A program made the position numbers and the translations under genes. From Bacteroidales bacterium (GTDB taxonomy: Bacteria > Bacteroidota > Bacteroidia > Bacteroidales > Muribaculaceae): a DNA stretch of 51,469 bases. The DNA lies in the NCBI GenBank assembly GCA_020859845.1, contig JAJBVL010000038.1, positions 1 to 51,469 of the forward strand, written 5' to 3'. Shown here piece by piece: positions 12,958 to 51,283 of the stretch (the stretch's first letter is position 1; every line of letters starts with the position of its first letter). The notes beneath the pieces are model-generated. The model ran no database searches. It was not told where the DNA came from and saw only the letters and a list, made by a program, of their open reading frames with translations.

Positions 12958-15372
12958 ATGAAAGACTATACCCTTCTTGAACTCCTGGAGAACTACAATA
13001 TCGTGATCCCCCCGATACAACGCGATTACGCTCAGGGGCGCACCTCGCAACGCATCACCGATCTACGTCGCGACTTTCTGGATGATATTTTTCAAGCTCT
13101 GTCAGACGACAATGCCCCAGCCCTACGACTCAACTTTGTCTACGGAGATGGCGACGATGGCATGACCTTTATCCCCATCGACGGTCAGCAGCGACTCACC
13201 ACCCTTTTTCTCCTTCACTGGATGTTGGCGCCCGACGACCAGCTATCAGCGTTGCGCCACGAAGATATGCCCACTCGCCCGAGTAGATTTTCTTATCAAG
13301 TGCGCACGTCGTCAAAGGACTTCTGTGATCGTCTTGTCAACAACCCTACCCATACGATTCATCGTCCCGACGCCGAGACTTTGTTATCCTCTGCTATTAA
13401 AAACGAGAGCTGGTATCTATGGGAATGGCGAAGTGACCCCACCATTCAAAGCATGCTCAAAATGATCGACGATATAGAAGCTCGAATCACTCCGGAGATG
13501 AAAGACGATATGTGGCAGCGACTCATAAGTGGAGCTATAACATTCAACTGGCTTCCGCTCCACAACTATCATCGTGTCAACGACCTATTTGTAAAGATGA
13601 ACGCTCGCGGACGTGAGCTCTCTGCCTTTGACAAGTGTAAATCGACCATCGAGCAACTCCTCTATAAAGCAGCTTATAAAGCCGCCTTCAAGGACCGCGA
13701 TGAGAAAGCTATGGAGCGCACGCATCAATGGGGCTGCAAAGTTGACAATCAATGGATGAATGGATTTTGGAAAGAGTTTAGCATAGCCATCTCCGACGAT
13801 GACGATGAAAAGACTTCGTCATATAAACTGCGTAGCATTGAAGAGTATTATCTACGCTTTCTCCGCCAGATGATGACGCTTCCTCTCTATCTTAACATCA
13901 CCAATCTCTGGGCAGCCAAAAGGAAAAGCCAGGAGATTTTAAATGATTTGTGTCAACGAGCCACGACCGGCGACCTTACACGCTTATTGACGGATATGGG
14001 ACAAGCCCAACTCCTCCCTCTCTTCTATTTTAATCAAGTAGAACGGTCAATCGACGGCATGATGGCCAATGAAGGCGAAATATTTCAGAGGACAAAGTTT
14101 CCGGTTTGGCTCGTGCCCAAAGATGAATCTCTTCTCCACCTGTTTACCCTCGCCGATGATGAGCTCACCTATCGCCAGCGGACGTTGTTGGTGGCGCTTC
14201 AATGTTTTACTCTGCTTTGTCCTTACTCGGAATGGGATAGAGAACTGACAGCATGGGTAAGGATCCTTTCCAATCTCATCACTCAGACCGACATCGACAG
14301 CGAGAACTTTCCCCGAGTATGTCAAGGGATATATGAGATGGCCCACAAAGTCTTAAAACCACGAAGAGATAGGAAGGATAAAGACAGCAGTGTGGAATGG
14401 TATTTCGCCCATGGAGGACGCATAAAGGCAATGCGCGGAGTGCAAGTTGAGGAAGAGCAAAAGAAAGCCGCCTTGATGCTCCGTTCACCTGCTTGGCGCG
14501 CTGCTATACTCCGTGCCGAGGGTCTCGACTGTCTGCGAGGGTGTCTGCGCATGCTTCTCTCCGACCTTGATTATACCCATACTACCGACGATGTGGATTT
14601 TTTTAATACGAAGGTTGACAACCTCGCTGCCTTGTTTCCTATCAATAGTGAAACAGGCAGAACCGCAATGACCAGCCACGCTGCCGAGGACAATCTACTT
14701 CTTCGCTCTTTCTTGGGACATCTGAAACGCGACGAATCGATATGGCGAAGCTATCCTATCTTCAACAACGACCTCACTACATGGCGATTAATCCTCACAG
14801 GTGCCTGGCCCGACCATAAAGACAATATGGAGGATTGGCGCCAAGCACTAACAGCAATTCTTTCTAAGGCCGAGATTTCCATCCCTGAGCAGCCCGAGCG
14901 CAATTATGGCTGGATCAAGACACTTGTGGAAGATAAGCCTATGCTTGCTCGCGTAGTGGAGATGCGCAATTGCTGGATACGCACCTATCACAACCATACA
15001 GCCATCTATCCAAGCGCTGCCGGTATTTTCTTCGATACGCCCCTACGTGACATGGTGATAAATGAGCTGGCTTCTCAACGCTATGGCCACTTTGAGCTGC
15101 GTTATGGATCTCTGATTGAGGGCACCACCTACATGGTGGCCAACGCTGTGGGCTTCGTGCTCGATGGAGTGGCTTATGAATGGAATGAATATACCAATAA
15201 GGTATATGCCGAACGTCGCTCCGTGTATCTAAATCCTCCCGATGGCAAAGAGTGGGAAGGGCATTCCTTCTTACCCGAGCCTCAGAACGGCCTTGATATA
15301 CCTACTTATATCAGCACCTATTTTATCCCTGCCCTTAAGGCTCTATCGCCTATTTTAGTCACTAAACAATAA
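12958..15372 (+). CDS. Second, larger DUF262 protein
   Basis: 804 residues. DUF262 motifs are clear: IPPIQRDYAQGR at about 17-28, IDGQQRLTTLFLLHW at about 73-87, and VKMNARGRELSAFDKCKS near 216. The long C-terminal part is largely helical and I see no convincing HNH motif, so it may be a regulatory or target-recognition partner of the shorter DUF262 protein 9 bp upstream. Five bases downstream begins the FtsZ-like mini-protein, so the three form a tight operon. Paired DUF262 proteins of unequal length occur in bacterial defence loci; the exact role here is inferred. Confidence 0.82.
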   Translation: MKDYTLLELLENYNIVIPPIQRDYAQGRTSQRITDLRRDFLDDIFQALSDDNAPALRLNFVYGDGDDGMTFIPIDGQQRLTTLFLLHWMLAPDDQLSALRHEDMPTRPSRFSYQVRTSSKDFCDRLVNNPTHTIHRPDAETLLSSAIKNESWYLWEWRSDPTIQSMLKMIDDIEARITPEMKDDMWQRLISGAITFNWLPLHNYHRVNDLFVKMNARGRELSAFDKCKSTIEQLLYKAAYKAAFKDRDEKAMERTHQWGCKVDNQWMNGFWKEFSIAISDDDDEKTSSYKLRSIEEYYLRFLRQMMTLPLYLNITNLWAAKRKSQEILNDLCQRATTGDLTRLLTDMGQAQLLPLFYFNQVERSIDGMMANEGEIFQRTKFPVWLVPKDESLLHLFTLADDELTYRQRTLLVALQCFTLLCPYSEWDRELTAWVRILSNLITQTDIDSENFPRVCQGIYEMAHKVLKPRRDRKDKDSSVEWYFAHGGRIKAMRGVQVEEEQKKAALMLRSPAWRAAILRAEGLDCLRGCLRMLLSDLDYTHTTDDVDFFNTKVDNLAALFPINSETGRTAMTSHAAEDNLLLRSFLGHLKRDESIWRSYPIFNNDLTTWRLILTGAWPDHKDNMEDWRQALTAILSKAEISIPEQPERNYGWIKTLVEDKPMLARVVEMRNCWIRTYHNHTAIYPSAAGIFFDTPLRDMVINELASQRYGHFELRYGSLIEGTTYMVANAVGFVLDGVAYEWNEYTNKVYAERRSVYLNPPDGKEWEGHSFLPEPQNGLDIPTYISTYFIPALKALSPILVTKQ

Positions 15373-47467: not shown

Positions 47468-49279
47468 ATGCAAGCAATAATCCTTGCCGCAGGCATGGGT
47501 CGTCGCCTTGGTGAATGGACCAAGGACAACACCAAATGTATGCTGCCGGTCAATGGGGTACGCCTCATCGACCGCATGCTCGACCAATTGTCTCGCCTCA
47601 ACCTGTCGCGTGTAATCATCGTCGTAGGCTACAAAGGCCAGAACGTAATCGACTATATTGGCGACCGATATGCCGACAGGCTCAAGATAGAGTACCACAA
47701 CAACCCAATCTACGACAAGACCAACAACATCTACTCCCTCTCGCTCGTGAAGGACAAGATGACCGAGGACGACACGCTTCTCATTGAAAGCGACCTCATC
47801 GTAGATCCGAGGATGTTTGATCTCATACTCTCCGATCCTTTCCCCAATCTGGCCCTCGTGGCCAAATACGAGACTTGGATGGACGGGACAATGGTTCGCA
47901 TAGACAATGACAACAACATCGTCAACTTCGTTCCCAAGGAAGCCTTCCGTTATGAAGACACTCCCCTCTACTACAAGACCGTCAACATCTACAAGTTTAG
48001 CAAGGAGTTTTCAAAAAACCAATACATACCTTTTTTGGAGGCATACGTAAAGGCGCTTGGCAACAACGAGTATTACGAGCAAGTGCTACGCGTCATCATC
48101 CTTCTCAAAAACGCAGAGATGAAAGCCAAGCCAGTTGGCGAACTTCCTTGGTACGAGATAGACGATGTGCAAGACAAAGACATAGCGGAGACCATCTTCT
48201 CCAAAGACGAAGAAAAGCTGGCTAAATACATGAAGCGCTACGGAGGCTATTGGCGTTTTGAGCATCTGCTTGACTTCTGCTATCTCGTCAATCCTTTCTA
48301 TCCTCCCCAGAAGATGCGAGATGAGATACAAGCCAACTTTGACAGACTGCTGACAGAATATCCATCGGGCATGTTTGTCAACAGTCTTCTTGCCGGCAAG
48401 ACCTTCAACGTCAAGCAAGAATACATTGTGGTGGGCAACGGCGCTGCGGAGCTCATCAAGAGCCTCATGGAAGGTGACGAGGGGAAGATTGGAATAGTTT
48501 ACCCGACATTCGAGGAATACCCTCATCGTAAGCGCAAAGAGGATATAGTAGCCTTCTTCCCCGATAATCGCGACCTCTCCTACACGGCTGACGACCTTAA
48601 GCATTTCTTCAATGACAAAGACATCAAGACGCTCCTGCTCATAAACCCCGACAATCCCTCGGGCAACATGATACCAGCCACAGAGGTGCTGATGCTTTGC
48701 GCTTGGTGTAAGGAGCGTGGCATCACACTCATCGTTGATGAAAGCTTTGTGGACTTCAGCGAGGCTTGGGAGACCAGCAGCCTTCTGCTGAACGAGATAT
48801 TGGAAGCCTACCATAATCTCGTGGTGATGAAATCCATCTCCAAGAGCTATGGCGTCCCAGGCCTACGACTTGGTGTGCTTGCCTCTGGAGATACGGAGCT
48901 TATCAGTCGCATCAAGAAGGATGTGGGCATTTGGAACATCAACTCCTTCGGTGAGTTTTATCTCCAGATAAGCGACAAGTATTTCCGCGACTACAAGAAG
49001 GCCTGCGCCAAGTTTCAGGAAGTGCGCGGTGAGTTTTTCGAGGAGCTTTCAAAGGTGCCATTCCTCCGCGTAATCCCCTCGCAAGCCAATTACTTCCTTT
49101 GCGAGATTACAGACCGTTTCACCTCTAGAGAACTTGCCGAACTGCTTCTTACCCGCCACAACATCCTCATCAAGGACTGCGACACCAAAACGGGCCTTGA
49201 AGGCCGCAATATGATTCGCGTGGCAGTTCGTGACCGCAAAGATAATCATGCCTTAGTTGAGGCTTTAAATTCTCTGTAG
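47468..49279 (+). CDS. Fused sugar/phospho-alcohol nucleotidyltransferase and class I/II aminotransferase (PLP)
   Basis: 603 residues with two enzymatic halves. Residues 1-~240 are a nucleotidyltransferase of the LicC/GlmU type: AIILAAGMGRRLGEWTKDN, then KCMLPVNG with the substrate Lys, and a metal Asp in LLIESDLIVD. Residues ~275-603 are a fold-type I PLP enzyme of the HisC/CobD kind: VVGNGAAELIKSL, LLINPDNPSGN, LIVDESFVDF, and the Schiff-base Lys in SISKSYGVPGLRLG. Such pairs make nucleotide-activated amino-alcohol phosphates, for example CDP-linked groups for surface glycans; the substrate here is inferred, not seen. The next gene begins 1 bp after its stop. Confidence 0.85.
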   Translation: MQAIILAAGMGRRLGEWTKDNTKCMLPVNGVRLIDRMLDQLSRLNLSRVIIVVGYKGQNVIDYIGDRYADRLKIEYHNNPIYDKTNNIYSLSLVKDKMTEDDTLLIESDLIVDPRMFDLILSDPFPNLALVAKYETWMDGTMVRIDNDNNIVNFVPKEAFRYEDTPLYYKTVNIYKFSKEFSKNQYIPFLEAYVKALGNNEYYEQVLRVIILLKNAEMKAKPVGELPWYEIDDVQDKDIAETIFSKDEEKLAKYMKRYGGYWRFEHLLDFCYLVNPFYPPQKMRDEIQANFDRLLTEYPSGMFVNSLLAGKTFNVKQEYIVVGNGAAELIKSLMEGDEGKIGIVYPTFEEYPHRKRKEDIVAFFPDNRDLSYTADDLKHFFNDKDIKTLLLINPDNPSGNMIPATEVLMLCAWCKERGITLIVDESFVDFSEAWETSSLLLNEILEAYHNLVVMKSISKSYGVPGLRLGVLASGDTELISRIKKDVGIWNINSFGEFYLQISDKYFRDYKKACAKFQEVRGEFFEELSKVPFLRVIPSQANYFLCEITDRFTSRELAELLLTRHNILIKDCDTKTGLEGRNMIRVAVRDRKDNHALVEALNSL

Positions 49280-49280
49280 A

Positions 49281-50183
49281 ATGGGCCCTAAGTATATCTC
49301 AAACGAAGACATTCAGAAACTGGACATTTCTCCCGCTACCTGCGTTGAATGGGTGAGGGAGTCTTTCCTAATCAAGAAAGAATGCCAGCTTCCCAAGAAG
49401 ATACCCGTTCATCCTCAAGGGGATGATTTCATCACCACGATGCCATGCCTTCTTCCAGAGGAAATGCACAGGTTTGGTGTCAAGGTAGTGTCACGGACTG
49501 AGGGACGTCATCCAGCTTTAAAAAGTAGTCTTACCCTGTATGACACAATCTCGGGGGATGCAATAGCGCTAATGGATGCGGATTGGATAACCAATATGCG
49601 CACTGGAGCAGTAGCTACTTTAGCGATAAAGACTTTGCGCAAACCCGACTCCAAAGTTTATTCTTTCATTGGGCTTGGACAGATTGCTCGAGCTACATTA
49701 AAGTGCCTTGCTGACGTGACGACTGATGAAGTTCTTACAATCCGTCTGAAGAGATACAAAGATCAAGCCGAACGGTTTGCGGAAGAGTTTAGCCACCACA
49801 CCAATCTCACATTCGAGATAGTAGACGACATGAGAAGTCTTGTCCAAGGCGCAGATGTGGTAGTGTCGGCCATAACATCGGCCAAGGAGATGCTTGTGGA
49901 AGACGTTAACTGGTTTGAACCAGGAGTGCTTTTAGTGCCTATACACACCCGAGGATTCCAAAACTGCGACACTGTCTTTGACCATGTCTTTGGGGATGAT
50001 TACGACCATATCAAGGGGTTCCAATACTTTGATCAGTTCAAAGCCTTCGATGAACTAGGAGAAGTGCTCCGAGGTGAAAAACAAGGAAGGACCTCATCGG
50101 AAGAGAGAATCATAGCCTACAACTATGGCTTAGCTCTCCATGACGTTTATTTTGCAGCGAAACTATATAAATTGGTATTCTAA
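49281..50183 (+). CDS. Ornithine cyclodeaminase / mu-crystallin family protein
   Basis: 300 residues, cytoplasmic. The family shows as RTGAVATLAIKTL near residue 107, the NAD-binding stretch VYSFIGLGQIARATLKCL near 125, and ADVVVSAITSAKEML near 192. Members cyclise ornithine to proline or act as imine reductases and dehydrogenases in making unusual amino acids. In a polysaccharide operon it might supply an amino-acid or imino group for glycan decoration, but that is inference. It is nested between the fusion enzyme (1-bp gap) and the ATP-grasp gene (0-bp gap). Confidence 0.85.
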   Translation: MGPKYISNEDIQKLDISPATCVEWVRESFLIKKECQLPKKIPVHPQGDDFITTMPCLLPEEMHRFGVKVVSRTEGRHPALKSSLTLYDTISGDAIALMDADWITNMRTGAVATLAIKTLRKPDSKVYSFIGLGQIARATLKCLADVTTDEVLTIRLKRYKDQAERFAEEFSHHTNLTFEIVDDMRSLVQGADVVVSAITSAKEMLVEDVNWFEPGVLLVPIHTRGFQNCDTVFDHVFGDDYDHIKGFQYFDQFKAFDELGEVLRGEKQGRTSSEERIIAYNYGLALHDVYFAAKLYKLVF

Positions 50184-51283
50184 ATGATCTCTGAACTTAA
50201 GCATCTTGTAAGAAACAGAATTTTCTCCTTTCGCCAAAAGCGCATAGCATTAACGTCTCAAAGGCATGAGATACTTAACTCGCTGAGGGGGGGGTAGTTA
50301 CACCTCTTTCTTCAGAGGAGAAAATTTATGTAAAAAGCAAATGGGGTAGAATATGCCCGTTCCCAAAACAGGCATATCCAGAACTTGAACTTTTTAAATT
50401 TTTTCGAGGTTCGATTGAAGACATATGTCCTCTCATTGTTTTCAACCCTTATATTCTTTGGGAATTGAATCCAAGAAACGAAGAGGCAACTATACGTGAC
50501 AAGGGCATATTAGACGTAATTTGGGACTCTAAAAAGACGCCTCCTCTCCTTGCCAAAAATATAAGAGGTGCTTTTCTTTCTAAAGATTCAAGATTAATAA
50601 CAATGAAACAAGCAATCCAAACAATTATGGAGGCCGAAACTGACATTGTTATTAAACCTTCAATAAATTCATGTTGTGGAAGAGGAGTTCAGATTCTTAA
50701 GAAGGATGTGTTGAGTGCCAAAAATTTAGATACTGTTTTAAAAGGCTTCAATAGTGACTTCGTCATCCAAGAGAAAATTCAGCAGAGTGAGGAAACAGCA
50801 AAATACAATCCTACATCTTTAAACACTTTCAGGGTCACATCTCTTCTAATCAATGGAGAATTTTCAATACCTATGATAAATTTCAAAATTGGAGCAGATG
50901 GTAAAGAGGTAGATAATATTGGCGGAGGGAATGGAGGCACTATGACTGGTGTAGATTTAAGAACCGGTGCCCTTTCTTTAGGAATGAATTCTAATTTTGA
51001 AATTATAGAGGAACGTGGAGGCTCTAAATTAAATGAGTGTTGCATTTCCGCTCTTGACAAAATAAAAGAATTCACAAAAGAATTACATCTAAGAATTCCA
51101 ATGATGAGGTTCGTAGGATGGGATATTGCATTAAATAAAGATAACACTCCTATTTTAATTGAGGCAAACGTCAACTACCCAGGAATTGAATTTGAGCAGT
51201 TGTTGAGTGGACCTTGTTTTGGGAAGAGAACTCAAGAAGTTATTGAATACATCCAAGAACGCATAAAACGCCGGAATGAGTGA
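50184..51283 (+). CDS. Sugar-transfer-associated ATP-grasp protein, out of frame at a G8 tract (phase-off or broken)
   Basis: The ATG at 50184, directly after the previous stop, gives 37 codons (MISELKHLVRNRIFSFRQKR...) that end in TAG right after a run of eight G at 50287-50294. The frame one base away is open from 50279 to 51283. With nine (or six) G the two join into one ~366-residue protein, so the track start at 50465 is only an internal TTG. The C-terminal part is an ATP-grasp domain: DIVIKPSINSCCGRGVQIL, FVIQEKIQQS, FRVTSLLINGEF, GWDIALNKDNTPILIEANVNYPG (in parts). It resembles the sugar-transfer-associated ATP-grasp family, thought to attach amino acids or similar groups to surface glycans. 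Whether the G-run varies in nature is inferred. Confidence 0.75.
50287..50294 (+). repeat. Poly-G tract (G8), candidate slipped-strand switch
   Basis: Eight consecutive G inside the 5' part of the ATP-grasp gene. Length 8 puts the gene out of frame and length 9 restores it. Long G-runs in coding sequence are typical of contingency loci. Confidence 0.8.

Follow-up and report, generated by a model that had tools for sequence, protein, structure and literature searches.

Muribaculaceae are dominant Bacteroidales of the gut. Discussions of how gut Bacteroidales vary their surface mostly centre on DNA inversion, through which capsule switching in Bacteroides is best known. In other bacteria, slipped-strand phase variation at poly-G/C tracts is established for glycan genes of Campylobacter, Helicobacter and Neisseria (PMC6321876, PMC8355987, PMC5084427), and the haemoglobin receptors of Neisseria meningitidis are phase-variable through poly-G (PMC3786947). 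In Helicobacter canadensis, tracts cause phase variation of protein C-termini (PMC2823697). In the PSI/9 acetyltransferase gene of Bacteroides fragilis 638R, one additional C within a run of four shifts the reading frame, with slippage as the suggested cause (PMC3090145). For Muribaculaceae, we came across no description of simple-repeat phase variation in the literature searched.

Here we analyse a stretch of 51,469 nt, referred to as the window, in which a predicted ATP-grasp gene is interrupted at a run of eight G. Combining the local arrangement with comparisons to related genomes, we consider it likely that this gene belongs to a surface-glycan operon, is phase-variable by slipped-strand mispairing and is present here in the OFF state. 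The nearest named relative carrying the ATP-grasp gene is Paramuribaculum sp. HAN018 (locus L056, the locus of genome G008); since the window genome shares its genus, it is assigned to Paramuribaculum (Muribaculaceae) and not to Bacteroides.

The broken ATP-grasp gene and its operon

All operon genes lie on the forward strand. A fusion gene for a nucleotidyltransferase and a CobD/HisC-like PLP enzyme (47468-49279; assigned through Pfam, with the NCBIfam model TIGR01140 at 179 bits, below its cut-off) is followed by a gene of the ornithine cyclodeaminase/mu-crystallin family (OCD; 49281-50183; PF02423, E=3.7e-32), which adjoins the ATP-grasp gene, and by the 5' start of a Wzx-type polysaccharide flippase that is truncated by the contig end (51276-51469; PF13440/PF01943). 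Of 297 Muribaculaceae genomes, 39 have the OCD gene, in most cases downstream of the nucleotidyltransferase/CobD-like fusion gene, and LicD (PF04991) occurs in relatives' versions of the operon. This context suggests a glycan to which a small amine or an amino acid is attached through a phospho or amide link, the amide presumably being formed by the ATP-grasp enzyme, and agrees with the earlier note on this DNA, which had taken the gene for one of glycan modification.

The TAA of the OCD gene (50181-50183) abuts the ATG of the ATP-grasp gene at 50184 with no gap. Translated from this ATG, the 5' part (50184-50297, 37 codons) reads MISELKHLVRNRIFSFRQKRIALTSQRHEILNSLRGG and ends at a premature TAG (50295-50297) placed straight behind the G8 homopolymer (50287-50294), as seen in the sequence and in a scan for runs; a ribosome that starts at this ATG therefore terminates before it can read the intact enzyme frame. 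The main part of the gene (50297-51283) lies in another frame, which has its own stop at 50276-50278, three codons ahead of the tract, and then stays open for 334 codons until the TGA at 51281-51283, with TTG 50465 as the first ATG, GTG or TTG. Once joined, these frames comprise 366 codons in total. The earlier note had described an ATG coupled to the preceding stop, a frame dying right after G8, a second frame open across the tract and an ATP-grasp protein of about 366 residues on joining, and each of these points was borne out, with all its coordinates correct.

The identity of the enzyme, likewise named in the earlier note, is supported by Pfam, by invariant residues, by an AlphaFold model and by fold matches in the PDB. 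The downstream frame matches PF14397 (ATPgrasp_ST, sugar-transfer associated ATP-grasp) with 104.5 bits against a cut-off of 31.4 (E=7.6e-30), covering profile positions 11-276 of 278, and keeps 16 of the 16 residues that are invariant among 19 homologues. The model (mean pLDDT 92.2, pTM 0.90) has high pLDDT from the first helix past the tract onwards, and its matches in the PDB are D-Ala-D-Ala ligases, ArgX and other amino-acid-type ATP-grasp ligases. Each homologue is one uninterrupted frame of 357-385 residues, and those aligning from residue 2-3 of the fragment have 39-42 residues ahead of that point; the 37 codons of the 5' part match this extra length, which argues that the 5' and 3' parts are one gene. 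From sequence and model, the downstream frame is thus predicted to encode a complete, undecayed ATP-grasp enzyme with an intact catalytic domain. A search of PDB chains by sequence yielded no clear relative, and viral contigs yielded none; in the literature searched we found no characterised PF14397 relative, and the family name is absent from it.

The length of the G8 tract alone is not statistically unusual, whereas its position and the class of the gene are. By first-order composition, about 1.2 runs of G8/C8 or longer are expected in the window and one is observed, i.e. the tract is no longer than composition predicts, and the window genome has roughly 30 runs of this kind, mostly intergenic or at contig ends. 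Tract length was therefore dropped as stand-alone evidence, and the case rests on the position of the run and on the relatives. We note that, among hypermutable tracts, G8 would be one of the shortest, and that TatC and MnmE are intact with G9, so a tract alone is no proof of switching.

Other elements near the gene were also considered. A promoter role of the window G8 was rejected, as no TAnnTTTG box occurs 12-26 nt past it, and the locus has no Rfam match. Upstream of the operon lies an inverted repeat (45508-45561/46273-46326; 54 nt, 87% complementary, 711 nt apart) composed of repeated GCGGCTG motifs; read as a Bacteroides-type invertible promoter, it would leave the frame break unexplained. 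As separate observations, the flanks CTGA-G(8 or 9)-TAGTTAC are common to the window ATP-grasp gene (50283-50301) and a SusC gene of a relative (L167), the reading frames being different, and TA behind G runs is more frequent in six relatives than base composition suggests.

Poly-G and poly-C tracts in related genomes

PF14397 is found in 74 of 397 Muribaculaceae genomes, and 28 further loci were compared at the DNA level. In two of them (L312 and L317) poly-G breaks the frame of the ATP-grasp gene. At the G10 of L312, homologue residues 26-118 lie in one frame and 121-362 in another. At the G9 of L317, a 64-codon frame, assigned by length and position and having no BLAST match of its own, precedes the tract, and homologue residues 66-361 follow in another frame. 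The tracts of the window gene, L312 and L317 sit at three different positions within the gene; for this reason they look as if they had been gained independently and repeatedly.

For other gene classes, runs of G9 or longer were collected from six relatives whose genomes are 98-99% complete, and 80 stretches were read, with Pfam used to tell real genes from chance frames; this census combines pattern searches with retrieved stretches, its gene classes are assigned from Pfam names, and the sample is not large. Nine Pfam-supported genes are intact across a G9+ tract in these genomes: four O-acyltransferases, HsdS, SusC, GH3, MnmE and a racemase. The six genomes contain 23 matches to the acyltransferase family PF01757, and its share of four in nine (p about 2e-9, assuming 2,000 genes per genome) is an excess far beyond chance. 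PF01757 genes intact across a run are L206 (G9), L208 (C9), L213 (C9), L223 (G9) and L255 (G10), and two others are split: L274 at G8, where PF01757 profile positions 2-95 and 129-323 lie in different frames, and L279 at C8, where the same holds for positions 4-197 and 242-324. L255, L274 and L279 come from a survey that started from the PF01757 family. A further split acyltransferase (L273, genome G026) has no G/C run and was put aside.

In SusC genes the run is located directly behind the signal peptide, two being intact (L167, L154) and two broken (L162 at G8, L216 at G9). In addition, a SusC/TonB receptor gene whose sequence contains N's (L146) has poly-G behind the signal peptide and is apparently broken. 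Among restriction genes, a TdeIII endonuclease (L190, contig C7 of G004) is split at G9, with profile positions 3-119 followed by 129-242, and an HsdS specificity gene (L214, contig C18 of G031) has two in-frame G9 runs and is intact; we regard the two as candidate phase-variable restriction systems. The window genome itself has a second OFF-type gene, L027 (contig C59, near 13122-13130), in which a typical signal peptide, MKKLLRFAAAVTACIAASYA, enters a G9 and the mature part (DUF3836, 407 codons) lies in a different frame from its signal peptide.

A distinct type of tract is found at the 3' end of OCD genes, where five of 40 related loci carry poly-C (C7, C8, C8, C9 and C11; L096, L100, L101, L110 and L127). 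These loci span three genera, and such runs are otherwise almost absent at that place. The next gene is octopine-dehydrogenase-like in all four readable loci, and in these one frame behind the poly-C reaches exactly the start of that gene; the OCD frame is the start-reaching frame in L100 and L110 and stops early in L096 and L101. Such a layout suggests slippage that affects either translational coupling or the C-terminal end of OCD. Homology to the window G8 was considered and rejected, as the OCD tracts consist of the other base, lie in another gene and are patchy on the OCD tree. The positional enrichment observed (six of 14 runs in 8.9 kb) consequently counts for the OCD poly-C and lends no support to the window G8.

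Tracts occur outside coding regions as well. At seven loci (L144, L152, L153, L155, L156, L160 and L161), poly-G of 7-10 precedes a TAnnTTTG (-7) box by 14-22 nt, against an expectation of 0.2 such pairs. Several of these pairs stand before SusC-type or other genes, and they may possibly be promoters tuned by slippage.

Taken across the family, the window ATP-grasp gene is one of many poly-G/C-interrupted genes in Muribaculaceae. We judge it likely that the family carries a poly-G/C phasome which comprises ATP-grasp ligases, O-acyltransferases, SusC and restriction/HsdS genes, and probably promoters.

Explanations for the interrupted frame

Several features of the locus are those of slippage: a homopolymer at the break of the coding frame, a preserved frame behind it, and members of the same classes ON and OFF in relatives. 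Both states were found in the genus for acyltransferases and SusC, to which the ATP-grasp genes add two OFF examples. We propose the following mechanism. Replication slippage would alter the number of G in the tract: a multiple of three would join the frames and give the amino-acid-type ligase of about 366 residues, and any other number a short stub only. The enzyme would couple amino acids or amines to the operon's glycan, and cells would thereby differ in this decoration. Reversibility of the switch is presumed. The earlier note had already read the locus as a poly-G switch in the OFF position, and the two further tract-broken ATP-grasp genes, the ON and OFF acyltransferase, SusC and restriction genes and the intact domain behind the tract strengthen this reading.

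The first alternative, that a single slippage in the lineage left a recently formed pseudogene which does not switch regularly, is unlikely. It would be in line with accidental frameshifts usually sitting at homopolymers, and with the two closest in-genus ATP-grasp homologues (G008 and G004) having no tract at the window site. Against it, the downstream ATP-grasp frame is free of decay, and the pattern recurs in two ATP-grasp genes as well as in acyltransferase, SusC and restriction genes, intact and broken, and was not seen among housekeeping genes bearing equal runs. A one-off pseudogene could account for the ATP-grasp gene alone, but it accounts poorly for the pattern in the family.

An assembly or sequencing error, by which the true tract length would differ and the gene simply be intact, has a rather small chance of being correct. 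Consensus errors most commonly concern the length of homopolymers, the assembly is a draft of 112 contigs, the contig of the window ends 1.2 kb past the tract, and contigs C28, C43, C65 and C78 of the same genome have G/C-rich low-complexity ends, perhaps read artefacts. However, TatC of the same genome is intact across a G9 run, and the 51-kb window shows no other obviously broken long gene. Error ignores gene class, and would hit run-bearing housekeeping genes too, of which no broken one was found: the tract-broken genes of the sample are surface, glycan, secreted or restriction genes, and housekeeping genes with equal runs (TatC, MnmE, GH3) are intact. This sorting by class disfavours sequencing error as the cause of the breaks.

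Alternatively, programmed -1 ribosomal frameshifting or transcriptional slippage might yield the full enzyme at a set ratio, which we hold to be highly improbable. The zero-frame heptamer G_GGG_GGG followed by a stop is a textbook slippery layout, and a 5-bp hairpin lies 8 nt further downstream, but this hairpin is no better than in shuffled sequence (z -0.5 to -1.5). Moreover, related tract genes break at varied lengths and in varied frames and others are in frame, which fits DNA slippage instead, and the homologues, as continuous frames, have no break at which such recoding would act. Finally, there is scarcely any chance that the ATP-grasp protein starts internally at TTG 50465 with the 37-codon frame as a leader peptide: although this codon opens 272 codons with nearly the whole Pfam domain, the start would drop 56 residues that form three helices at pLDDT above 90, contain family-conserved positions and are present in all homologues.

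Relation to known phase-variable systems

If the proposed slippage phasome is real, it would be a second route to surface diversity, independent of inversion, in a group noted for its invertible promoters. Single assemblies would then misreport glycan-modification genes as pseudogenes, and glycan decoration, phage receptors and restriction would vary among the cells of one clone.

Slipped-strand switching of the ATP-grasp gene would have most in common with the systems of Campylobacter, Helicobacter and Neisseria, with which the tracts described here share an intragenic G/C homopolymer, a break at the tract, glycan, receptor and restriction targets, and the occurrence of both states among genomes. 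The differences are the host group, gut Bacteroidales of the Muribaculaceae, the ATP-grasp ligase as a target, and the short tracts of G8-G10, which are known from assemblies. The SusC genes L162, L216, L167 and L154 resemble the haemoglobin receptors of N. meningitidis in having poly-G within an outer-membrane receptor gene, but they are glycan transporters with the run immediately downstream of the signal peptide. In five relatives, the 3'-terminal poly-C of the OCD gene is similar to the C-terminal tracts of H. canadensis; there the tract is poly-G, whereas the OCD poly-C may in addition regulate how the following gene is coupled.

Within the Bacteroidales, the nearest precedent found is B. 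fragilis 638R, likewise with a run-associated frameshift in a glycan-modification gene; that is a single case at a short C run, in contrast to the runs of 8-10 nt in many genes seen here. Capsule inversion in Bacteroides also results in a variable surface glycan in Bacteroidales, but it changes the orientation of a promoter, whereas the proposed slippage at G8 would change the reading frame of one enzyme.
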